From positions 1 through 47,814 of the forward strand of contig CACZMI010000023.1 of the NCBI GenBank assembly GCA_902782245.1: a stretch of 47,814 nucleotides of DNA, read 5' to 3'. The stretch comes from an uncultured Bacteroidales bacterium. GTDB lineage: Bacteria > Bacteroidota > Bacteroidia > Bacteroidales > Bacteroidaceae. Every line of letters begins with the position of its first letter. The first letter of the stretch is position 1. Shown one piece after another: positions 8,855 to 39,904 of the stretch. A model generated the notes under the pieces. The model searched no databases, was not told the origin of the DNA, and saw nothing but the letters and a program-made list of their open reading frames with translations. The position numbers and the translations under genes are program-made.

Positions 8855-9892
8855 ATGAACCTTAGAGCCAAACTCTTTATCACCATACTTTCCACGCTGC
8901 TGTGCGTTAACGGATACAGCCAATGGCTGACCGCCGACCTGTACTATGACGGTCTGTTTGACAACCGCGAGTTCAAGGGCGACATGCAGCCGCAGACCAT
9001 TTACGGAATGCGTCTCATGCCGGAGATAGGAATAGATGCCGCCCCCCACAGAATCAGAGTGGGATTCTCCAAGATATGGGAATTCGGAGCTGACGATATC
9101 ATTGACCCTGAAATCATACTGTATTACAGATATAGAGGACCTGTCAGCTATTTCTTCGGAGCTATTCCGCGCAACAATCTCCAACGCCAGCTGCCTGATG
9201 CATTCCTTTACGATTCCATCGCATTTTTTGAGCCTACCATAAAAGGAACCCTGATCCAGTACTCCTGCAGAGATGTTTTTGAAACGGAGCTGTACTGCAA
9301 CTGGTTCAGCCGTCAGACATTCACCGACCGTGAGGCTTTCCGCATAGTATGGGACGGATTTGTGGGCAGCGGCATGTTTGGTGGAGGCTGGTTCGTGGCA
9401 ATGACCCATTTTGCCAACACAATGCAGCACAATCATGCCCTTTACGAGAAGTTCCAGTTCAACCCCTACCTGTCATTTGAATACCCCTCAAAAGAATCAA
9501 TAACCAACTTCAGAGTCAAGGCCGATGCAGGCATGCTGTTTTCAATAGTTCACTGCCGCGCCAATGATTTCTGGTACAACCCCATAGGTTTTCTTGGAGA
9601 TATTCAACTGGGATGGAAGGGCTTCGACATAAAGAGCACCGTATATGCAGGAGGCCCTCAGATGCAATATCTTGATGATCCCGAGGCCGGACTCGCTTTC
9701 CACCGTAGTGACCCGTTCTACAACCATTCATTCTACAACAAGACTGAGTTTGGCGTATTGTTGGTATCTGACAGCAGAGCACAGTTAGGGTTCCGCTGGA
9801 ATCTGCATTTCACGCCTGGCACACCGGTACATAATCAGCAACTGATAACGCTGAAATACCGGATAGGCATGAATAAAAATCTCCATGAATAA
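8855..9892 (+). CDS. Exported beta-barrel-like envelope protein of unknown function
   Basis: I do not recognise a named family. From ATG 8855 the product is 345 residues. It starts MNLRAKLFITILSTLLCVNGYSQ, a clear signal peptide cleaved after about residue 22. The rest is rich in alternating aromatic and polar residues (DLYYDGLFDN, IILYYRYRGPVSYFFGAIP, FQFNPYLSFEYPS, QLGFRWNLHF), as in outer-membrane barrels, and ends near LITLKYRIGM. ATG 8834 or TTG 8825 would extend it, but the promoter box ends at 8827. The PAP2 gene follows directly after the stop with no gap. The context (PAP2, LpxL, divergent MsbA) suggests a role in outer-membrane lipid assembly, which is inference. Confidence 0.7.
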   Translation: MNLRAKLFITILSTLLCVNGYSQWLTADLYYDGLFDNREFKGDMQPQTIYGMRLMPEIGIDAAPHRIRVGFSKIWEFGADDIIDPEIILYYRYRGPVSYFFGAIPRNNLQRQLPDAFLYDSIAFFEPTIKGTLIQYSCRDVFETELYCNWFSRQTFTDREAFRIVWDGFVGSGMFGGGWFVAMTHFANTMQHNHALYEKFQFNPYLSFEYPSKESITNFRVKADAGMLFSIVHCRANDFWYNPIGFLGDIQLGWKGFDIKSTVYAGGPQMQYLDDPEAGLAFHRSDPFYNHSFYNKTEFGVLLVSDSRAQLGFRWNLHFTPGTPVHNQQLITLKYRIGMNKNLHE

Positions 9893-28257: not shown

Positions 28258-28291
28258 TACAATCATGCAATGAGAATGATCAGTGACTAAT

Positions 28292-29932
28292 ATGAAAGAG
28301 CAGTCTAGACAATTCAAAAAAACTCTCAGTTCATTAATATTGGTTGCCATTGGATGGATTATCATAGGATGTACTGATGAAAGACTCTCTCAGGCAGAAA
28401 TGCTTATGGAGACTGATTCAAAAGCAGCCGACTCCATCCTGATCAACATGCCCATACCAACAAGGCAACGCGACCGCGCCTGGTATGCCGTACTCAAGAC
28501 GCAGGCGGACTACAAACAATACAAACCCATCACATCCGACAGCCTCATTCTGACTGCCACAGACTATTACGGTACTCACCGCAAGAGTTACCGCTCCGCA
28601 ATGGCTTGGTATACCCAGGGGTGCGTGTATAAAGAACTTGGTAATGACTTTTCGGCCATAGATACTTATCTGAGGGCAAAAGATTTATTTCCTGACACAT
28701 TATCGCGTTATTATTCACTTACAGAGATAGAATTAGGAAGCCTCTATCTTAAACATATGATGTTGGATAAAGCTATGCACGCATTCTACTGCAGCTTATT
28801 GAATGGGGAAAGGCTTGATGAACCAAAAATCTATAACTATTCTTACAATGAGCTAGGGTTATGTGCCTTGTACAGTAGAGACTTTTTGCTGGCAGACAGC
28901 ATTTTCACTAGAATATTCATCGATTCTAATTTCTCAAGGAGCATGAGAATAGCATCAGCTCTTAGTCTGGCAAAAATTCAGTTACACTATTATAACAATT
29001 ATCATAAGGCTTTAGAATACGTCAATTATTATCTGAAAACTATAAATGATTATTCTAAAACCGCGGCAGGATTGAGTGTGAAGGCAGATATCTTCTACGA
29101 GATGCAGTTGTTGGATTCAGCCTATTATTATTCAAAAGAATCCTTAAAACATGAATTGGAACTCTATACCAGATGCGCCAATGCTGACCGCCTATCGGAG
29201 CTGTCACCCATTCTTGATAAAGATGAGGAATCGGCAAAATGGCATAGAATATATAAAGAACTGAATGATTCCATAACCAAGATTGAAAGCGCACGTGAAA
29301 TTGAAGAAATCCGATATCAGCACAAGGAGATTGTCACAGGCGAGAAGTATGCCCATCGCCATAAGGTGATTATAATAGTTCTTGCAGGCACTCTATTAAT
29401 GATAACCTTAATACTCTTTTTTATTTATTCCACATTTAAGCATAGAGAAGTAGAGCGGATAATGAAAAAGAAACAAGAACTCCTTAAAGAAGAGGAAGAA
29501 ATCCGCAAAAGCACAATAGAGATGCTTGAATCCAAGATAAAGGATTATTCCGATCATGATCCGGAAGCTAGAGCGTTACTAATAAGGTCATATTCAAACC
29601 GCCTACAGATGTGTAACAGGGCTTTCAGGATGACTTCAGAATACAACATGTTGTCTTCCTTTAAGTTGAACGTCAATGAACTGAATAGGCATGACAAGGA
29701 GACATTATTTAATCAGCTTAAACGTTCTTATCTGGAAACCATAACAGACATGCAGGCAGAAATACCAGAAATAAAAGAAAAAGACATTCTTACTATCATC
29801 CTTAAAAACCAGGGCTTGGGTATTGAACAGATAGCGTCACTTTTTTCCATTACGACGGACTCTGTAAAGAAACGTCTTTACAGGCTATCACAAAAAGTCT
29901 CATCAGATTTTCTTGCCATATATAGCATTTAG
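28292..29932 (+). CDS. Lipoprotein-TPR-transmembrane-HTH regulator
   Basis: 546 residues from ATG 28292 (a GTG at 28283 is less likely). The N-terminus carries a lipoprotein-type signal ending IIIGC, with Cys near residue 27. About 40-340 are helical TPR-like repeats (AMAWYTQGCVYKELGNDFSAI, YNELGLCALYSRDF). A single membrane segment follows at about 357-382 (VIIIVLAGTLLMITLILFFIY), then a charged coiled coil (MKKKQELLKEEEEIRKS). The end is a helix-turn-helix with GLGIEQIASLFSITTDSVKKR near 510-535, like LuxR/sigma-4 HTHs. Sensor outside, DNA-binding part inside: a one-piece membrane regulator of a type common in Bacteroidota. It lies directly upstream of the DUF3244/RHS genes on the same strand and may control them, which is inference. 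Confidence 0.85.
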   Translation: MKEQSRQFKKTLSSLILVAIGWIIIGCTDERLSQAEMLMETDSKAADSILINMPIPTRQRDRAWYAVLKTQADYKQYKPITSDSLILTATDYYGTHRKSYRSAMAWYTQGCVYKELGNDFSAIDTYLRAKDLFPDTLSRYYSLTEIELGSLYLKHMMLDKAMHAFYCSLLNGERLDEPKIYNYSYNELGLCALYSRDFLLADSIFTRIFIDSNFSRSMRIASALSLAKIQLHYYNNYHKALEYVNYYLKTINDYSKTAAGLSVKADIFYEMQLLDSAYYYSKESLKHELELYTRCANADRLSELSPILDKDEESAKWHRIYKELNDSITKIESAREIEEIRYQHKEIVTGEKYAHRHKVIIIVLAGTLLMITLILFFIYSTFKHREVERIMKKKQELLKEEEEIRKSTIEMLESKIKDYSDHDPEARALLIRSYSNRLQMCNRAFRMTSEYNMLSSFKLNVNELNRHDKETLFNQLKRSYLETITDMQAEIPEIKEKDILTIILKNQGLGIEQIASLFSITTDSVKKRLYRLSQKVSSDFLAIYSI

Positions 29933-30040: not shown

Positions 30041-30067
30041 AGCATATAACCAAATAAATTGATGTTT

Positions 30068-30424
30068 ATGAAAAAGGTATTATTTTTTGTTTTTATGCTT
30101 ATTATTGGTAATATCGCTCTTCAAGCTGGCGATAACATTCATTTAGTCCAAAATGATCCACCTGTAATAGATCCTGAAGATGCCCCTCGTTCTATTGAGT
30201 GTGAGGTATCGGCATCAATTGATGCCCAGGTGATAACCGTATCATTCAGCGAGCTGACAGCATCGCAGATTGTGGTGAGAGACTCTGCAAATCTGACGGT
30301 ATTTGATCAAACTTATACTTCTGCCTATAGTGCTCAGGCTGACATATCGACACTGCCATCAGGCAGCTACACCTTACATATATATGCGCTCGGGTACTGG
30401 TGGTACGGGCACTTCAACCTTTGA
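30068..30424 (+). CDS. Small exported DUF3244-like protein
   Basis: 118 residues from ATG 30068 (ATG 30062 adds two). Signal peptide MKKVLFFVFMLIIGNIALQA. The mature part has an acidic start (DPPVIDPEDAPRSIECEV) and a beta-sandwich-like body (VITVSFSELTASQIVVRD, TLPSGSYTLHIYALGYWWYG) that fits DUF3244, a family of short exported Bacteroidota proteins without known function. The ending STLPSGSYTLHIY also resembles the last strands of T9SS sorting domains. It is the first gene after a strong promoter and 79 bp upstream of the YD/T9SS-like gene. Confidence 0.75.
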   Translation: MKKVLFFVFMLIIGNIALQAGDNIHLVQNDPPVIDPEDAPRSIECEVSASIDAQVITVSFSELTASQIVVRDSANLTVFDQTYTSAYSAQADISTLPSGSYTLHIYALGYWWYGHFNL

Positions 30425-30503: not shown

Positions 30504-30950
30504 ATGAAAAGGACAGACCGGCTACTACAGCCAATCATTCTCTCTTTGTCATTATTGTGCGTCAGACCCGTAATGATACATGCTGACAGAATACAATACA
30601 GTTACGATGCTATAGGCAACCGAATCTTAAGTGAGAGGGAATTACCATTACGCAATAACGGGAATGGTTCTCCTTCAGACACCATATCCAGACACGACAT
30701 GCTGTCCTCTCACCGTATAACAATACTCCCCAATCCTACTGACGGCAGGCTCATAGTTGAAATAACTGGGATAGAGACTGTAGACAATACGTCAATTGTA
30801 GTATATAACAACAATGGCAGCATTGTATACAGCAACGCCCAGATTCAGGCCGAGAACGAGATTGACCTCACACCATGTCCCAGTGGCATGTATCTACTTA
30901 TTATCAAATTAGATAATGAGTCCCAAATATGGAAAATCATCAAAATCTGA
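30504..30950 (+). CDS. Short exported protein: one YD repeat plus T9SS-type C-terminal domain
   Basis: 148 residues. The N-terminal signal region (MKRTDRLLQPIILSLSLLCVRPVMIHA) is followed at once by a single YD/RHS-like repeat, RIQYSYDAIGNRILSERELP. After a polar linker comes a typical type A sorting domain: ITILPNPTDGRLIVEITGIE, VVYNNNGSIVYSN and LTPCPSGMYLLIIKLDNE. The layout is what one expects at the extreme C-terminus of a T9SS-exported RHS protein, but here it is a free gene. It lies 8 bp upstream of the RHS start and is surely co-transcribed. Known: T9SS CTDs direct secretion and cell-surface anchoring. Inferred: it may help surface delivery of the RHS protein, which has no such domain itself. 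Confidence 0.75.
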   Translation: MKRTDRLLQPIILSLSLLCVRPVMIHADRIQYSYDAIGNRILSERELPLRNNGNGSPSDTISRHDMLSSHRITILPNPTDGRLIVEITGIETVDNTSIVVYNNNGSIVYSNAQIQAENEIDLTPCPSGMYLLIIKLDNESQIWKIIKI

Positions 30951-30958
30951 GAATCACC

Positions 30959-33900
30959 ATGAAAATACACTGCACTACAGCTTTGCTCATATCAGCATTG
31001 ATTATGAATTCTGCGATGATTAATGCACAAGATACAGCCGATACCATCATTACAGCTGATGCTGATAGCTTAAAGATTTATTTGCGCCAGTATGAAGGAG
31101 GCAACTTTGCCCCGGAATCGCTTGAATCTTTTGACCCGGATGATCCAAACCAAATTATATTTGGTGATTTCTTTGAACTGCCATTCATTGTAGGAACCAG
31201 GAACACGGATTTCTATTATTATAGTACCAAGAATACTAATTTGTTCACAGATAAGTACCAAGGTATGACAACACGGGATGTGTACTATAAGTTCCAACTT
31301 ACCACACCCATGAATGTGGTCATTACTCACGAAGGGTCAGAACTATACGACACATACGTTTCGCTACTTGACTCAGCTGGTAATATGATAGAAAGCAATG
31401 ACAATTATTCGGGTGACGGGCATTGTTCCAACACATTACACTCCTTTATCCAGCGTCAGCTATCTCCCGGCATCTATTATGTAGTATCGGAAGGTAAGAA
31501 TGCAAACGGGACGATCAAAACCAATATTTATGGCTATGCATCAGAATATGGCTATACCATAGTACCGGCAGCCTACAGCACTGAACCTGGTACAACAGTA
31601 GAAGCCGTAGGCGGTGTGTTCAATGTATCACCTATGGGTGGAGCAACTTATAGTATACCCATTGATGTTCCGCTAGGAGTGGGTGGACTCCAACCGCAAC
31701 TGTCCATTATATATAACAGCCAATCCGGTAACGGATTGTGCGGTTATGGTGCAAGCCTGTCAGGTTTGTCTTCAATAACACGTGCCCCCAAGGATATTCA
31801 TCATGACAACAATGCCAATGGATTAGAATATCTTGCCGATGATGCACTTTATCTGGATGGAGTGCGGCTGATATTGGATGAGAATAGTATTGCAGGACAA
31901 GAAGGAGCTGTTTATTATCCTGAGTCAGACCCGTTCACGCGTGTCATAGCACATGGTACATGTACATCAACAGCAAACAACACGTGGTATGAGGTCCAGA
32001 GCCGCGACGGCATGGTCTATCGGTACGGATATAATCCCGACCTTAATACAGACACACATTCAAGGCTGTCATACACCGATGATTACGGGGCACAGAAAAT
32101 ACACTCATGGTATCTGAGCTATGTCTCACAGCCCACTGGCAATTACATGACCTATGAATATGATATAATAAACCTTTGTGTCTACCCTTACAGGATTAGA
32201 TATGGAAACAATTCTTATCAAAGCAACTCTCTGACTAATACAATTGAGTTCACATATAACGAGGATCGGACAGATTCCATACCTGTCATCTTTGACGGCA
32301 AAAGGGGCAGCATGAAAAGGAGACTCCATTCCATCACAGGTATGACCGGTAGCAGCGTATACCGTACATATACACTAAACTACAACACTACAGGTGATGG
32401 CGTGGCCTGCAAGTTCTCACGCCTGACGAGCGTTACTGAAAAGAACGCGCAGAACCAGACTCTTCCGCCAACTACGGTCTATTGGTCGTATCTACCACCA
32501 ATATCTTATACAGCCTCAGCACTTACTGTTAATCAGCCGACAAATATCAACCCGTTTGTCTCATTCCCGTTTGCGAACCAATCATATATGGCAGGAGACT
32601 TCAACGGAGACGGACGGTCCGATATTGCCGGTATAGCATTAGTCGGAGAGCCCAATAACAATGGGGGGGAAGACTACTATACATATATATACATGTATCA
32701 CTCGACGCTTTCTCAATCGGGAACATCACAATACATATCCGGGACAAATTTTATATTACCGCCAAGTGTTGAATCAGGAAGGATAAAAAGTAATGTTAAC
32801 GCATTGTCGGTCATTGATGTAGATGGTGATGGAATTAATGAACTAATTATACCATATTATGTACAGTCAGGATCGACTGCTGCCCTGGGATTATATGTGT
32901 TAGGGCAGAACTTTTCTGTTGGAGATGGCGGCGGTGCTACAAGTCTTTACAATACCGGTAAACCCCTTTTTACATCTGGAGATATTGACAATGACGGCAG
33001 AACGGATGTGGTATTCATGGAAAAGACTAAAAGGAACGGCAGCTATCCTTTATACTTATGGAAATACAACATAAACTATATCTCCGGTAGCAACGAATTG
33101 GAACATTCGTTGTTTGATATGGATACAGAGACCTCCCTTTCTTTGAGTTCTGCACCTCAGCATGTATACATATCTGACATGAACGGCAATGGCCTGAATG
33201 ATCTCATAGTAATATGCAATAGCGGCTATTCTATCTATTGGAACCAAGGAAACGGAATCTCTGCAAACACTTATTCCGACGCGAACAAAAGTACCGGCAC
33301 CAGCCTCAAGGATGTACATTCGCTGACTCCTGGCGATTATAATGGAGATGGACTGATGGATTTCCTTTCGAACACTAAAGGCTCAAACAATTGGTACTTC
33401 ATTCTTAACAAAGGAAATGGTACTTTCAATGAGACGCTAGCACTTAACATGAGCGTCATTTCAGATCAAAGCTTCACAGAACAAGACAATGACAAACTAA
33501 GTGTTAATGTCGTTGATATGGATAGTGACGGCAAGTCTGACGTAATCATAACCAAAGGGGTCTATAAGAGGAAATCAAACATTTGGGGACATGAATGGGG
33601 AGAATTTGACTATGTCATAACCAAGTGGCTGAATTCAACTGGAGCCACGCTTGTGGAGAAACACTCGGCAACATCAGAACAATCAAGTGACATGTATTCA
33701 AGTAAATACATCACCGGTGATTTTGACGGTGACGGCCGCATGGAACTGGTCAACTACGGTTATGATTGCGTAAACGGGACCAATTCGAACTCCAATCCCG
33801 TATGGCGCATATACAAAAACAGCAACCTTACTGCGCAGAGCGGCAAGGTTACTTCCATAACAGGCGATTATGGCGCCACAATCGGCATAACGTATTCCAC

Positions 33901-36900
33901 ACTCACGGACCCTTCAGTCTATACCAAAGGTGGTAATGACCCCTATCCCGCACCCAGATATACCATACCGCTCAACGTGGTCAGGCTGACTACACAGAAT
34001 AATGGCGCGGCAGGTTTACTGACCACGCTCTACACTTATGAGGGACTCAAGGCACACCTGCGGGGCAGAGGCCTGCTGGGATTCAGCAAGATGGCGGCCA
34101 ACTGCACCACCACAGGCTTGATCTCTGAGAGCGGAGTCACACAATGGAATACTGCGTTCTATATACCAAAGGTAACCTACTCCAAGACCACCGTCGACAG
34201 CAGCTATGCGCAGAACACCACAACCCTTACCATAGCGGACAAGGGACAGAAACGCTATTTTGCATATCCCTCACAGACCGTGGCAAGGGATATGGACGGT
34301 AACACCGTTATCACGGTATGCGCTTATGACACCACATACGGTTATCCCCTGTCTGAGACCACGACCTATGGTACAGGCATGTACCGCACCATCACATATT
34401 CTGACTATGCACTTGCCGGAGGAGCCTATCACCCCCAGACGGTTACTACTGCGCAGAAGCATCAGGATGACGCGTCACCCTTCAGCATAACGGCCAGTTA
34501 TACATACGACAACACAACAGGCCTTGTCACAGACAAGGTTGACAACTACGGTACATCAAAGCCTCTCACCACGCAGTATACCTACGATGTATGGGGTAAC
34601 CTGACCAGCCAGGTGAGCACTGGTAGTGGCATAACGGCTGCCTGCACCACATACTACAGTTATGATGAAACAAGGCGTTTCCCTGCCAGGGTTTATACCA
34701 ACCCGGCCTCGTCTGTACAGAAGTACACCTATGACCTGTGGGGTAACGTGCTGACAGAGCAGGACAGCATCAACTCTTCAGTCAGCAACACCGTGACCCA
34801 TTCCTACAACGGATGGGGGCAATTGGTCAGCACCGTCAGGCCTGACGGTACTGCAACCACCTACACCCGAGGCTGGAACAACAGCGCATTCAAACGTTAC
34901 TACCTGCTTGCACAGGGAACCGCCACCCCTTGGGTCAAGACCTGGTATGACAATCAGGGACGTGAAGTTAAGACTGAGAGCATTGGTCCCGATAACGTTA
35001 GCCTTACCAGCACCACCACCTACAACAGCAAGGGTCTTGCAACCAGCCGTACCGAGACCAGCGGCGACCTGTCACTGACCCACACCTATACCTACGATAC
35101 TCGCGGTAGGGTACTGACCGAAACGGCACCAGGCAACTCCTATACCGCTTACCAGTACGGGAACCGGACGGTTGCTGTCTCTGAGAACAGCCGCACTACC
35201 ACAACTACATACGATGCCTGGGGAAACGTGAAGACAGTCACTGCCCCTGTGTCAGGCATAACCAACACCTACGCCTCAAACGGCGGCATAAGGACTACCG
35301 CATCGGGCGGTGCCACCTGGACTTTCCAGTACGATGACCGCGGCAACCGCAGCTCCATGACCGACCCGGATGCGGGCACCACCACATACACTTATGACGC
35401 ACTGGGGCGTGAGACCAGCAGAACCGATGCACGCGGAGTTGTTTTTGTCACAAAATATGACTACCTTGGCCGCGTGACACAGCAAAAGGCGGACGATTCC
35501 ACCATCAACTACACTTATGGTAGCAGCGGAACAGGTCAGATGCGCCTTATAAGCGAGAGCAACGGCACATGGAGCAAGAACTACACGTATGATGCTTTAG
35601 GCCGTGTCACAGGTGAGACTATGAGCAAGGGTACAGCGTTTACCAGGAGCAGGAGCTACACCTACGGCTCTAACGGGCTGATTGCATCGCGCACCCTGCC
35701 AGGAGGCATGGTGTACAGCTACTCTTATGATCCTTACGGTAACCTTGACGGCATAGACATGGGACCCGGTATAGTTGGGTGGAGCAGTGCCGGCTATACA
35801 GGCCGCCGTACAACGGCCAAGACTGTATTGAACGGTGATACGGAGCATCCTTTCTTCAGGACAGCCACGCTTGACGGTTACGGATTGCCTGACTCCATAA
35901 TAACACTACAGCGGTGGGGACAGAGTTACTGTAGCTACCAGACCGAGGACTATGGGTTTTCTCCACAGACCGGCAACCTTATGTACAGAAGCGGCATTGT
36001 GGGTGGAGGCTACCCGCAGCAGTATACATACGATACGGCGGACCGGCTGACATTGGTACAGGAGGATAACCAGACCATTATGACTATGACATACGCCCAG
36101 AACGGCAACATACTCTCCAAGACCGGTATGGGCAGTTACACCTACGGCTCATCGTCACGGCCTCATGCGGTGACAGAGGTGGACAACACGGACGGCAGCA
36201 TCACACTGCAGGTGCAGGATGTTGGGTTCAACTACTGGAACAAGATGAGTTCTGTCTGGGCTACTGACGAGAATAATTTCTACAGCTACAGCGTAGACTA
36301 CGGCCCGGACCTAAGGAGGGTGTCCAGCGAGATGCACCGTACATACCAGAAACTCTATGAAAAGTTCTACTGGGATGATTACGAGGAGAAGGTGGAGGGC
36401 AGCGACACGCTGCACTACTACTACCTGAACGGCGCAAACGGCCTGGAGGCCCTGCATATCGTAAAGACCAGCCCCAACGCCCAGCCCGTATCACAGACCA
36501 CCAAGGTGGTGACTGACCATCTTGGTAGCATAACGGCCCTCATAGACGAGAGTGACTACGCGTACATTGCCAGATATGACGCATGGGGCAACCGTGAGAT
36601 TGTTATGCCGTTCTGGTTTGACCTCACGTTTGACCGCGGCTACACCGGTCATGAGCATCTGGACCTGCTGGGCCTCATAAACATGAACGGCCGCATGTAC
36701 GACCCGCTGCTGGGCCGTTTCCTCAGCCCGGACCCGTACATCCAGGCTCCAACAGACCCCCAGAACTTCAACCGCTACTCATACTGCCTGAACAATCCGC
36801 TCAAGTACACGGATCCGGATGGGGAGATTATTTGGATGCCCATAATAATTGCAGCTGCAATGGGTGGAGTCCAAGGAACAATGCTTGGTCTTCAAAATGA

Positions 36901-37771
36901 TGCAGAAGGTTGGGATTTGGTTGGTTATATTGCCGGTGGTGCGGCACTTGGCGCTTTGTCGGGCGGTATGGCACAGGGCATGGCGGCAATAGGAGCAAAC
37001 ACTTTCATTACTCAACTTGCATGTAATTCTGTAACCAGTTCATTGGGAGCAGGGATGATGTCCGGATGGGATGGAAAAAGCATGTTGATGGGATTGGGGG
37101 CAGGTTTTATGTCTGGATGTATTTCAGGTGCAATAAGTCTTTCATATGATCCAGTAGGTATGGTGAATGGCATGCTTGCCGATGGTGCCGTTAATGCTGG
37201 GATAGGAGCCTTATCTGGTGGATTCACCGCATCTATCTTTGGAGGAGATTTTTGGGAAGGTGCTCTAAACGGAGCAATCATGGGTGGAATCTCCGGTATG
37301 GCATTTGGTGCCTATAGAGGTTGGGCTAATGCAGAAACGCTCGGTGTGAATCATTGGACAGGTGGCACACTACAGGAGCGTGCACAGGCCTGGGCAAATT
37401 ATTATGGATTACCTGGAGAAATGTTCAACTATTCTAGTCAAGATAAACTAGATGCATATGTTAAAACTCGAGGTAAGGACTACAGATTCTTAAATCAATA
37501 TAATAGAATAGGTGTTTCCATTGATTCCCGTCTAACAATAGATGGCTTTTGTGGCGATACTCGTGATGTAATTTTTTTATCTGCTAAGACAATCAGACAT
37601 TCTCGTTTTGATACTGGATGGAGCAAGGGTACTTTTCACCATGAATATTTTCATAGTTTAAACCTTCAGAACTATGAAAACGAGATAGGCGCCTATATAG
37701 AAGGTTATAAATATGGTGGAAGACGTTATTATGGACATTGTAAATTAAATAATTATGGAATCCCAAAATAA
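30959..37771 (+). CDS. Giant secreted RHS polymorphic-toxin-like protein with C-terminal HExxH domain
   Basis: 2270 residues from ATG 30959; signal peptide MKIHCTTALLISALIMNSAMINAQ. Order: PPC-like domain (about 85-195, DVYYKFQLTTPMNVVITHE); SpvB-like domain (from about 215, SPMGGATYSIPIDVPLGVGG); seven or so FG-GAP/VCBS repeats (about 540-925, such as GDFNGDGRSDIAG and GDIDNDGRTDVVF); TcdB-middle-like segment; many YD repeats (about 1180-1860, YTYDVWGNLTSQ type); RHS core (DHLGSITALIDES, NMNGRMYDPLLGRFLSPDP, NPLKYTDPDGE, near 1850-1954). The variable tip (1957-2270) has a glycine-zipper hydrophobic stretch, then HHEYFHSL near 2228 with a downstream Glu (NEIGAYIEGY), a zincin-type HExxH site. 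Base composition turns AT-rich inside the tip. It overlaps the next gene by 17 bp. The target is unknown. Confidence 0.9.
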   Translation: MKIHCTTALLISALIMNSAMINAQDTADTIITADADSLKIYLRQYEGGNFAPESLESFDPDDPNQIIFGDFFELPFIVGTRNTDFYYYSTKNTNLFTDKYQGMTTRDVYYKFQLTTPMNVVITHEGSELYDTYVSLLDSAGNMIESNDNYSGDGHCSNTLHSFIQRQLSPGIYYVVSEGKNANGTIKTNIYGYASEYGYTIVPAAYSTEPGTTVEAVGGVFNVSPMGGATYSIPIDVPLGVGGLQPQLSIIYNSQSGNGLCGYGASLSGLSSITRAPKDIHHDNNANGLEYLADDALYLDGVRLILDENSIAGQEGAVYYPESDPFTRVIAHGTCTSTANNTWYEVQSRDGMVYRYGYNPDLNTDTHSRLSYTDDYGAQKIHSWYLSYVSQPTGNYMTYEYDIINLCVYPYRIRYGNNSYQSNSLTNTIEFTYNEDRTDSIPVIFDGKRGSMKRRLHSITGMTGSSVYRTYTLNYNTTGDGVACKFSRLTSVTEKNAQNQTLPPTTVYWSYLPPISYTASALTVNQPTNINPFVSFPFANQSYMAGDFNGDGRSDIAGIALVGEPNNNGGEDYYTYIYMYHSTLSQSGTSQYISGTNFILPPSVESGRIKSNVNALSVIDVDGDGINELIIPYYVQSGSTAALGLYVLGQNFSVGDGGGATSLYNTGKPLFTSGDIDNDGRTDVVFMEKTKRNGSYPLYLWKYNINYISGSNELEHSLFDMDTETSLSLSSAPQHVYISDMNGNGLNDLIVICNSGYSIYWNQGNGISANTYSDANKSTGTSLKDVHSLTPGDYNGDGLMDFLSNTKGSNNWYFILNKGNGTFNETLALNMSVISDQSFTEQDNDKLSVNVVDMDSDGKSDVIITKGVYKRKSNIWGHEWGEFDYVITKWLNSTGATLVEKHSATSEQSSDMYSSKYITGDFDGDGRMELVNYGYDCVNGTNSNSNPVWRIYKNSNLTAQSGKVTSITGDYGATIGITYSTLTDPSVYTKGGNDPYPAPRYTIPLNVVRLTTQNNGAAGLLTTLYTYEGLKAHLRGRGLLGFSKMAANCTTTGLISESGVTQWNTAFYIPKVTYSKTTVDSSYAQNTTTLTIADKGQKRYFAYPSQTVARDMDGNTVITVCAYDTTYGYPLSETTTYGTGMYRTITYSDYALAGGAYHPQTVTTAQKHQDDASPFSITASYTYDNTTGLVTDKVDNYGTSKPLTTQYTYDVWGNLTSQVSTGSGITAACTTYYSYDETRRFPARVYTNPASSVQKYTYDLWGNVLTEQDSINSSVSNTVTHSYNGWGQLVSTVRPDGTATTYTRGWNNSAFKRYYLLAQGTATPWVKTWYDNQGREVKTESIGPDNVSLTSTTTYNSKGLATSRTETSGDLSLTHTYTYDTRGRVLTETAPGNSYTAYQYGNRTVAVSENSRTTTTTYDAWGNVKTVTAPVSGITNTYASNGGIRTTASGGATWTFQYDDRGNRSSMTDPDAGTTTYTYDALGRETSRTDARGVVFVTKYDYLGRVTQQKADDSTINYTYGSSGTGQMRLISESNGTWSKNYTYDALGRVTGETMSKGTAFTRSRSYTYGSNGLIASRTLPGGMVYSYSYDPYGNLDGIDMGPGIVGWSSAGYTGRRTTAKTVLNGDTEHPFFRTATLDGYGLPDSIITLQRWGQSYCSYQTEDYGFSPQTGNLMYRSGIVGGGYPQQYTYDTADRLTLVQEDNQTIMTMTYAQNGNILSKTGMGSYTYGSSSRPHAVTEVDNTDGSITLQVQDVGFNYWNKMSSVWATDENNFYSYSVDYGPDLRRVSSEMHRTYQKLYEKFYWDDYEEKVEGSDTLHYYYLNGANGLEALHIVKTSPNAQPVSQTTKVVTDHLGSITALIDESDYAYIARYDAWGNREIVMPFWFDLTFDRGYTGHEHLDLLGLINMNGRMYDPLLGRFLSPDPYIQAPTDPQNFNRYSYCLNNPLKYTDPDGEIIWMPIIIAAAMGGVQGTMLGLQNDAEGWDLVGYIAGGAALGALSGGMAQGMAAIGANTFITQLACNSVTSSLGAGMMSGWDGKSMLMGLGAGFMSGCISGAISLSYDPVGMVNGMLADGAVNAGIGALSGGFTASIFGGDFWEGALNGAIMGGISGMAFGAYRGWANAETLGVNHWTGGTLQERAQAWANYYGLPGEMFNYSSQDKLDAYVKTRGKDYRFLNQYNRIGVSIDSRLTIDGFCGDTRDVIFLSAKTIRHSRFDTGWSKGTFHHEYFHSLNLQNYENEIGAYIEGYKYGGRRYYGHCKLNNYGIPK

Positions 37772-38405
37772 TCTTAATAATCATTATTTGAGAAAGGTAT
37801 TAACTGTTTTTATGTTTGCATTTTTTTGTGGTGTGGTATATCCTTCTTCCGTGAGCAGATATCCTTTTTATTTTGATAAAACATCATATTGGATGAACAT
37901 TTGTGACTACATTGTTAAGGGGAAAATAATTGATAAAAAGGCAGTAGGATACGTTGAAGATGGAGCAGACAATTGTGTCGTTGCTGTAAAAATTGCAATT
38001 ATAGATAGTTTTAATTACGATATTGGAGATACTGTGTGGATATATCCAGATTTGGAACTTTATTTTAACCGACAGAAAAGGATAGATGTAAGCAATCGTG
38101 ATACTGTATGGTCTATTCAATCTGAAGATGTCGATCATGATAGTTGGGTATTTATTAATTATGATAAATACGGGAATTTTAAAACAGGACAATTATGTTT
38201 TTTTAGGTTTCGCAAAGAAGGAGATGCTTACATTTACAGTCTTGCAGATATGTATTTACCAGTACTTGTAGTGAATAATAAAGTAAATGTTAAAATGAAT
38301 AGATGGATTACATTCACAGATATATTTAAACCATTAAATCAACGCAATAAAGTCAACGTTAAGCGATTTGAAAGACAAATAAAGAAAAGATTTCCCTTAA
38401 GATGA
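37755..38405 (+). CDS. Exported protein, candidate immunity partner of the RHS tip (OB/NTR-like)
   Basis: I do not recognise a named family. 216 residues, starting inside the RHS gene (17-bp overlap), so translation is coupled. The N-terminus (YLRKVLTVFMFAFFCGVVYPSS) is a signal peptide or anchor, placing the protein in the periplasm. The body has DYIVKGKIIDKKAVGY, VVAVKIAIIDSFNYDIGDTVWIYP and later beta-rich segments. This pattern resembles the netrin/TIMP-like OB folds seen in some exported bacterial proteins. The tail is very basic (NVKRFERQIKKRFPLR). The gene is clearly more AT-rich than the housekeeping genes. Position right after a polymorphic toxin tip suggests an immunity protein. Confidence in a real gene is high; confidence in the role is about 0.5. 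Confidence 0.75.
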   Translation: MESQNNLNNHYLRKVLTVFMFAFFCGVVYPSSVSRYPFYFDKTSYWMNICDYIVKGKIIDKKAVGYVEDGADNCVVAVKIAIIDSFNYDIGDTVWIYPDLELYFNRQKRIDVSNRDTVWSIQSEDVDHDSWVFINYDKYGNFKTGQLCFFRFRKEGDAYIYSLADMYLPVLVVNNKVNVKMNRWITFTDIFKPLNQRNKVNVKRFERQIKKRFPLR

Positions 38406-38820
38406 AAAAGATAAATATATTATTATATTACTTGTTGGTATGCTATTTATCTCATGTGATTGCCTGGTACACATACAGGGTGTAGTGATTGATTCCAAAA
38501 CCCGATTACCAATTAAAACGCCAAAGGATGAATATAAAGAAATACTATGGGATACTAGAATAAAACCGCATTCATCAAGAGACATTGAACACTGGGGTAA
38601 TTGGATGTATGATTATCCTGATACTACTTTTTTTGGCATTTTCAATACAATTGACCTTGACACCATGTCTCTTGAAGAATTCAAATCAAAGTTTCCTATT
38701 AAACATGAGTTTAAGGTCACATTACAAGATATGATTGATCGTGACTGGACTTTGATTTACCCTCCATCTGAGAAATTATTATGCGTTGGACAAATATTAG
38801 CTATTAGCCGGATTAATTGA
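38402..38820 (+). pseudogene. Small lipoprotein gene, apparently frameshifted near its start
   Basis: ATG 38402 overlaps the previous stop as ATGA and opens MKKINILLYYLLV, a typical lipoprotein signal start, but this frame soon ends in TAG (27 codons). In another frame, from ATG 38440, an open frame continues MLFISCDCLVHIQGVVIDSKTRLPI to 38820 (126 residues). Joined with one frame change near 38435 the two make MKKINILLYYLLVGMLFISC, with a perfect lipobox. The body begins with a carboxypeptidase-regulatory-like strand (QGVVIDSKTRLPI). Either a single-base indel in the AT-rich signal region broke the gene, or translation really starts at 38440. AT-rich like its neighbour; possible second immunity or orphan cargo gene. 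Confidence 0.65.
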
Positions 38821-39752: not shown

Positions 39753-39876
39753 AGTTTCCTGAACTTTAAATTTGGGTTATAACATAAAGGAAAATAAGTG
39801 ATAAAGTATAACCTTATCACCCATTCTACCAGTACCTCCGCTGGGAATCGAACCCAAATTTAAAGTTTAGGAAACT
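39753..39876. repeat. Inverted repeat of part of the tRNA-Arg gene (26 bp, one mismatch)
   Basis: 39753-39778 is the reverse complement of 39851-39876 with one mismatch (25 of 26). The latter copy is the anticodon arm, variable loop and start of the T arm of tRNA-Arg. The spacer is 72 bp and contains the rest of the tRNA 3' end and a small hairpin. The stray copy sits at the broken end of the ATPase fragment, as expected for a recombination or integration scar. No integrase or transposase is nearby. Confidence 0.85.
39785..39820 (-). terminator. Probable terminator of tRNA-Arg
   Basis: GTGATAA (39798-39804) and TTATCAC (39814-39820) form a 7-bp stem with a 9-nt loop. On the minus strand it is followed by a T-rich stretch, TTATTTTCC. 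It lies about 13 bp after the tRNA 3' end. Confidence 0.5.
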
Positions 39877-39904
39877 TCCGTTCTATCCATTGAACTACAG
39901 AGGC
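39833..39904 (-). tRNA. tRNA-Arg (anticodon CCU)
   Basis: On the minus strand, 72 nt fold into a full cloverleaf. Acceptor GCCTCTG pairs with CGGAGGT (first pair G-U). The D arm is GTTC/GAAC with loop AATGGATA. The anticodon stem GAAGT/ACTTT closes the loop TTCCTAA, giving anticodon CCT. The T arm is TTGGG/CCCAG with loop TTCGATT. The discriminator base is A; CCA is not encoded, as is common in Bacteroidota. The anticodon arm and variable loop are duplicated in inverted orientation about 100 bp downstream. Confidence 0.92.

Follow-up and report, generated by a model that had tools for sequence, protein, structure and literature searches.

Architecture of the Rhs gene and exchange of its tip

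The window analysed here is a 47,814-nucleotide stretch of DNA from an uncultured Bacteroidales bacterium, and represents one entire contig (C23) of a source genome that comprises 98 contigs and is 86% complete. Its forward strand carries a gene for a large Rhs protein, whose C-terminal tip is the subject of this study, and directly behind it a gene for an exported protein, P0003 (Table 1). The open frame of the Rhs gene runs from 30929 to 37771 (2280 amino acids), with a likely start at 30959 that yields a 2270-residue protein ending at 37768. The match to the Rhs core family TIGR03696 covers residues 1873-1955, the DPDGE motif occupies residues 1952-1956 with its last base at 36826, and the tip comprises residues 1957-2270 (314 amino acids). 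An earlier reading of the letters alone (the sequence-only reading) had proposed that the frame after DPDGE is unlike the rest of the protein and encodes a metallopeptidase toxin; it located the change properly, right after DPDGE, with coordinates that begin one codon late.

Table 1. Features of the Rhs locus and its surroundings in the window
Feature	Position	Strand	Basis or remark
TPR-type protein, 5' of the toxin operon	28283..29929	+	weak TPR matches under curated cut-offs; membership of the system uncertain
DUF3244 protein, signal-peptide-like start (by eye), upstream of the Rhs gene	30059..30421	+	PF11589, E 3.5e-10
Companion: signal-peptide-like start, one YD-like motif (YSYDAIGNR, by eye), type IX type A sorting tail	30504..30947	+	TIGR04183, E 6.7e-13; PF18962, E 3.4e-11
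Constant part of the Rhs protein	30959..36826	+	signal-peptide-like start, SpvB (residues 225-402), FG-GAP repeats, YD/RHS repeats, Rhs core
Gly/Ala/Met-rich linker with GxxxG repeats, 174 residues	36827..37348	+	module common to unrelated tips
NHWTG boundary motif, junction of linker and toxin domain	37349..37363	+	[N/S/R/P]-x-W-[T/D/N]-G pattern
Toxin domain, 135 aa, predicted minimal zincin metallopeptidase	37364..37768	+	motif and context
HEYFH, residues 2228-2232	37640..37654	+	sequence; predicted zinc ligands His2228 and His2232, predicted catalytic Glu2229
NEIGAY, residues 2241-2246	37679..37696	+	sequence; predicted third zinc ligand Glu2242 (or nearby Glu2240)
P0003, exported protein, candidate cognate immunity	37755..38402	+	position, signal peptide (by eye), family
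P0004, possible distant, possibly broken relative of the HEYGH-type lipoprotein	38440..38817	+	pairwise E 5e-7

We compared the last 100 core residues of the protein with 201 genomes of the same family (E<=1e-10). Relatives were present in 26 genomes, the source genome included, and tips were examined at 30 of the 32 places found, again including the locus itself. At the other 29 loci the core was 46-84% identical over the matched part, and the toxin part of the tip resembled none of the 29 other tips (blastp, no E <0.1), in agreement with the earlier proposal that the core is kept and the tip swapped. The drop behind DPDGE was sharp: protein identity to a locus of the same genus with a different tip (L099) was 90-93% over residues 220-950 and 72% at residues 1860-1957, and fell to about 20% beyond. 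At the DNA level, similarity to three loci (L099, L101 and L118), representing a second Rhs copy in the same genome and two genomes of the same genus, stopped at 36826, the final base of DPDGE. Elsewhere the end point varied, lying at 36810 for L100, at 36816 for L102 and at 36834 and 36871 for the two matching pieces of L117; L124, which lacks an Rhs gene, gave no nucleotide match. Base composition shifted as well, with GC at third codon positions (GC3) falling from 66% in the Rhs part to 34% in the linker and 23% in the toxin part, and total GC declining stepwise from 54 to 48 to 35%. Composition thus changes where the earlier reading placed it; however, AT-richer DNA is also present in the N-terminal half of this protein (GC 43%, GC3 about 44%), so that low GC alone is no marker of the tip. 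Altogether, the gene encodes a polymorphic Rhs protein, in which relatives share a constant core but differ in the C-terminal region behind it.

The second Rhs end of the same genome, on contig C67 (L118, 1-5058), carries a tip with an HEYGH motif and a lipoprotein gene and is cut by the contig end. This HEYGH tip is identical in protein sequence to a tip in another genome (G189), and the transposase-like genes on C67 are presumably IS66-like. At the other end of the Rhs protein, the segment ahead of SpvB (residues ~17-198) aligned to more than one place in both L102 and L103, and seems from these alignments to be a repeated N-terminal domain in relatives.

A two-module tip: linker and predicted metallopeptidase domain

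Sequence comparison divides the tip into two separate modules, a linker and a toxin domain. The long Gly/Ala/Met-rich stretch described by the sequence-only reading is real: these three residues make up 46% of the linker (36830-37348) versus 17% of the core, and the linker contains 17 GxxxG motifs compared to a mean of 8.4 in shuffled sequences (0 of 5000 shuffles reached 17). Kyte-Doolittle hydropathy, sampled in 19-residue windows every five residues, peaked at 1.54, and no sampled window exceeded the usual transmembrane threshold of 1.6. By composition-adjusted blastp the linker was related to two of the 29 other tips, L034 (E 6e-10) and L057 (E 1.5e-5), the L057 match extending to the W-T-G motif, while the C-terminal parts of both were unrelated to the toxin domain here. 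Without composition adjustment the linker matched more tips, which composition alone may explain. The boundary motif [N/S/R/P]-x-W-[T/D/N]-G was present in 9 of the 29 other tips, whereas all 10 HEYGH tips lacked it. The ends behind such linkers include ones that we take, by eye, to be HNH-like and ADP-ribosyltransferase (ART)-like. Because related linkers precede unrelated domains, the linker appears to be a carrier segment of general use and no part of the protease mechanism. Help in membrane crossing is plausible for it by analogy with Tde1, in which a GxxxG stretch is reported to permeabilise membranes (PMC10240207).

The toxin domain contains HEYFH and, shortly downstream, NEIGAY, both of which had been noticed before. 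When the tip was shuffled 200,000 times, HExxH arose in 0.3% of the shuffles and HExxH with [DN]ExxA within the next 40 residues in 4 of them, the second pattern having been chosen after seeing the sequence. The domain thus shows the zincin combination of HExxH and a downstream third ligand, predicted here to lie in YENEIGAY. Together, motif and context make a metallopeptidase toxin the likely identity of the tip, as first proposed, and no family or structure match added to this. The 313 residues from 36830 had no counterpart in Pfam or NCBIfam, nor did any PDB sequence match them up to E 1; for the last 148 residues Pfam gave no family at all up to E 10, hence not M91 (PF14891). In the same range the domain gave no profile match to the Tox-MPTase families, which we assume to be contained in Pfam. 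A PDB sequence search up to E 10 returned four matches at E 0.79 or worse, to a phytase and three myroilysin sequences; VgrG2b, assumed to be present in the PDB copy used, was not among them. Myroilysin, presumably a zinc protease, was given no weight as a relative, with E 1.5 or worse and HExxH motifs that did not align.

Searches for homologues of the toxin domain covered overlapping genome samples. Among 399 genomes of the family the domain found itself alone. Of 393 genomes of the order 27 matched at E<=0.1 including its own, the other 26 at E 0.002 or worse; of 395 genomes of the phylum 5 matched at E<=0.02 and of 37 genomes of the genus 5 at E<=0.05, its own included in each case and the others at E 0.0027 or worse. 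HExxH was present (in frames of at least 60 residues) at only three of 36 weak-match loci (L028, L031 and L098), none with [DN]ExxA in the 40 residues inspected, and two of the weak matches (L005 and L009) were judged to be other proteins when their open reading frames (ORFs) were viewed by eye. None of 27 pattern stretches in the genome_contigs collection was confirmed as a relative of the toxin domain, and none was found in viral contigs, plasmids or phages.

Scanning genome_contigs for the motif gave 24 stretches, 12 of them in frame, of which four appeared by eye to be Rhs tips from other bacteria (L070, L077, L083 and L086) with the form HELFH...NEVEAY. Since these tips were found by scanning for the motif, sharing it provides no independent evidence. 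One of them, L086, passes the M91 cut-off in Pfam (E 3.5e-7), two score below it and one gives no match. Profile comparison of HEYFH and HELFH tips returned a probability of 8.5-9.6%, and hhalign comparison of HEYFH and HEYGH tips one of 1%, and we rejected HEYFH and HELFH tips as demonstrated relatives and HEYFH and HEYGH tips as one family. The same scan of viral contigs gave eight loci, four of them in frame, and by eye no Rhs tip was among them; the HELFH-tip profile matched two viral loci, both in very large frames, which were not used. AlphaFold models of the domain had a predicted local distance difference test score (pLDDT) of 33 alone and 40 with the four motif-selected HELFH sequences, too poor for judging whether the two His and the Glu cluster. 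The second model placed helices over TFHHEYFHSLNL and the ENEIGAYIEGY region, a result too weak to count; its input sequences had been selected by motif. Its Foldseek matches, including methyltransferases and botulinum light chains (E at least 2.6, template-modelling score at most 0.19 by query length), were dismissed as meaningless for so poor a model.

Exported neighbours of the toxin

P0003 lies directly downstream of the toxin gene. Its first ATG, at 37755, overlaps that gene, and an in-frame TTG at 37788 would start just ahead of the signal peptide. Among 369 genomes of the family, strong members of the P0003 family occurred in the source genome (G000), G119 and G255, and a more distant member on a second G119 contig (G119:C10); all four begin with a signal peptide (by eye), and P0003 is 43% identical to the G119 gene over 189 amino acids. 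Two further matches in this search were judged to be chance, one covering 25 residues of the signal peptide region (G278) and one weak and, by eye, in a phage-like neighbourhood (G298). In 198 genomes of the order the three matches were P0003 itself and two weak ones, likewise judged chance, and no relatives were present in plasmids or viral contigs. The idea, drawn from its pattern, that P0003 is an NTR/TIMP-like inhibitor received no support from profile searches.

The P0003 family is present in two sister genomes that lack this toxin. In G119 one copy follows an HEYGH tip and that tip's lipoprotein, and the distant copy has no toxin within the 4.4 kb examined to the contig end; in G255 the relative sits among small genes with no Rhs gene in the 16 kb examined. 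From this distribution, the relatives without toxin look like orphan immunity genes directed against a circulating toxin; orphan immunity in Bacteroidales is known from work on the type VI secretion system (T6SS) (PMC10470768). Position directly downstream and occurrence of the family without this toxin make P0003 a candidate immunity gene, and it probably protects the producer as the cognate immunity protein.

We also asked what kind of gene follows the other tips. A signal-peptide-like start was present in the first downstream gene of all 15 HExxH tips (own included) compared to 5 of 14 others (Fisher p 2e-4). These 29 loci comprise 25 long tips and the four HELFH tips; tips shorter than 150 residues (5 of 30: L038, L039, L040, L051 and L052) were excluded from this count and from the lipoprotein count below. 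The score was a hydropathy rule of our own that could use any start codon within 400 bases and was applied equally to both groups, and the loci are not independent, L033 and L058 having the same tip and L045 and L046 nearly the same. Furthermore, lipoproteins were encoded behind 9 of 10 HEYGH tips versus 0 of 15 others, as detected with a profile built from L099, L102, L103, L108 and L117; four of the nine counted loci hold these very genes, and that of L058 is nearly that of L099. At L108 and L109 the HEYGH tip is followed, from about 9040, by a row of three similar lipoprotein genes, of which the third is cut by the locus end. At L105 (~9160-9870) an ART-like tip (L060) is followed by a macrodomain-like gene, an arrangement reminiscent of DarT/DarG.

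P0004, the gene behind P0003, matched the lipoprotein profile at E 0.0053, a weak score as two other ORFs reached 0.0064 and 0.0066. Ahead of it, at 38402-38470, a lysine-rich start and a lipobox-like stretch were seen by eye in different frames, and to judge from its sequence P0004 may be broken or mis-assembled. Because it is possibly related to lipoproteins that the survey found restricted to HEYGH tips, P0004 is perhaps a leftover or orphan of an earlier or foreign toxin-immunity pair. Past this low-GC toxin and immunity stretch, at a distance of about 1 kb, lies a tRNA-Arg gene (cct; 39832-39904), a possible integration landmark.

On the 5' side, the companion gene extends past 30929, where the Rhs frame has its first in-frame ATG. 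Relatives of the companion lie immediately 5' of Rhs at 10 of the 17 loci that hold the Rhs start (phmmer E<=1e-4; L099-L104, L106, L107, L110 and L114), and small ORFs resembling the DUF3244 gene precede Rhs in some relatives (by eye). The TPR-type protein further upstream is presumably regulator-like. Searches of Pfam and NCBIfam detected no C-terminal type IX sorting tail on the Rhs protein itself; the tail is on the companion. The genome encodes a full-length SprA, a component of the type IX system, and gave no match to the T6SS sheath protein VipB, which was detected in the E. coli control. Delivery of the Rhs toxin through type IX secretion is likely, and the companion is a possible carrier in trans that would act by its own YD motif. 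TANFOR toxins have been hypothesised to be substrates of the type IX secretion system (T9SS) (PMC7073777); a literature search combining Rhs, type IX secretion and YD repeat found no paper.

Proposed mechanism, alternatives and known systems

We consider it probable that the locus encodes an exchangeable, Rhs-borne zinc metallopeptidase tip that acts in the periplasm and is neutralised by P0003. The N-terminal signal and the Rhs shell would take the tip out of the cell, probably by Sec and then type IX secretion with the companion, and the Gly-rich linker, ending at NHWTG, would connect the shell to the toxin. The last 135 residues are predicted to fold as a small zinc metallopeptidase with His2228, Glu2229, His2232 and a Glu of the YENE motif. 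The protease would cut a cell-envelope protein in a competing relative's periplasm, and in the producer's own periplasm exported P0003 would bind the protease and thereby protect the cell. The periplasm is the favoured site of action because of the signal peptides encoded behind HExxH tips and the precedent of VgrG2b from P. aeruginosa, to which the tip may be similar in action: in E. coli its HExxH domain was reported to do no harm in the cytoplasm but to be toxic in the periplasm, and the cognate immunity protein to need its signal peptide (PMC6899460). Weighing against this reading, the other zincin-like tips were seen without the linker that this tip has, for which we have no explanation.

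Alternatively, the protease could act in the cytoplasm, with the linker bringing the domain across the inner membrane. Seven tips with W-T-G linkers are indeed followed by genes without a signal-peptide-like start (L044, L048, L055, L057, L059, L060 and L061), as this would predict; however, P0003 and its three relatives bear signal peptides, and some GxxxG-rich linkers (L034, L043, L049 and L050) are likewise found at loci whose next gene bears a signal. An exported immunity candidate points to the periplasm, and inner-membrane passage by the linker would then be unneeded, and we regard a cytoplasmic site as unlikely. Less likely still is a toxic role of the Gly-rich stretch itself, by membrane insertion and leakage, with the HEYFH domain as a helper or as a release or anchoring domain. 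Its GxxxG excess and the example of Tde1 (PMC10240207) would fit such a role, but the same kind of linker precedes unrelated C-terminal domains, as expected of a carrier, and its hydropathy stays below the transmembrane threshold in all sampled windows. Finally, the toxin could be decayed or inactive, or the tip could have a non-toxic role at the surface, with HEYFH incidental. The failure to find a homologue in any collection searched and the partly broken appearance of the neighbouring P0004 are consistent with decay, whereas no stop interrupts the frame, neither motif is damaged and sister genomes have conserved the P0003 family; to this explanation we assign the lowest probability of the three.

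A periplasmic protease toxin remains our preferred reading, and it can be extended to a bolder one: the companion, docked into the Rhs shell by its single YD motif, would take the whole tail-less toxin through the type IX translocon, the tip would found a new family of periplasmic protease toxins and P0003 a new family of exported inhibitors. As part of that extension, the Rhs protein may be without a sorting tail because its toxin end must stay free. Taken as a whole we think this combination doubtful. For Rhs/SpvB-type toxins of Bacteroidota, exit from the cell and place of action have been little tested, and the locus offers a small testable pair, a 135-residue protease candidate and an exported inhibitor candidate. 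It fixes the exact joints between core, linker and toxin, suggests that a toxin's place of action can be predicted from the signal peptide of the next gene, and, through the sorting-tail companion, allows type IX delivery to be tested directly.

Metallopeptidase tips on Rhs proteins are already established (Zhang et al. 2012, PMC3482391), and some polymorphic metallopeptidase toxins in Bacteroidetes are described there with a TcdB/TcaC-type export route. Tox-MPTase1-5 and Tox-HopH1 in that work resemble the present tip as Rhs-borne C-terminal HExxH domains; in contrast to them, the tip here matches no Pfam family up to E 10. Judged by sequence, the toxin domain and P0003 fall outside all families tested here, and a literature search on metallopeptidase toxin, immunity protein, Rhs and periplasm found no paper, which is no proof of absence from print. 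The HEYGH tips, including the C67 copy, share the Rhs core, HExxH and an exported candidate immunity protein, but lack the W-T-G boundary, have another immunity family and showed the low profile probability given above. The HELFH...NEVEAY tips from Bacteroidales and Fibrobacter metagenome-assembled genomes likewise end an Rhs protein with HExFH and then NExxAY and have a signal-bearing next gene, but were picked by the motif scan, lack a Gly linker by eye and have a longer spacing. In Apibacter, SpvB-type Rhs genes adjoin type IX sorting-domain genes and an association with the T9SS has been proposed (PMC8125069). These SpvB/TcdB-type loci have the same architecture and neighbourhood in another genus, and the section of that paper devoted to them mentions neither a companion YD motif nor this type of tip. 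VgrG2b/PA0261 (Tpe/Tpi; PMC6899460) is comparable in carrying an HExxH metallopeptidase domain at the C-terminus of a delivery protein, in the harm it does in the E. coli periplasm and in its immunity protein with a signal peptide. It differs in its carrier, a T6SS spike rather than an SpvB/Rhs protein, and had no sequence match to the predicted metallopeptidase tip in the PDB search.
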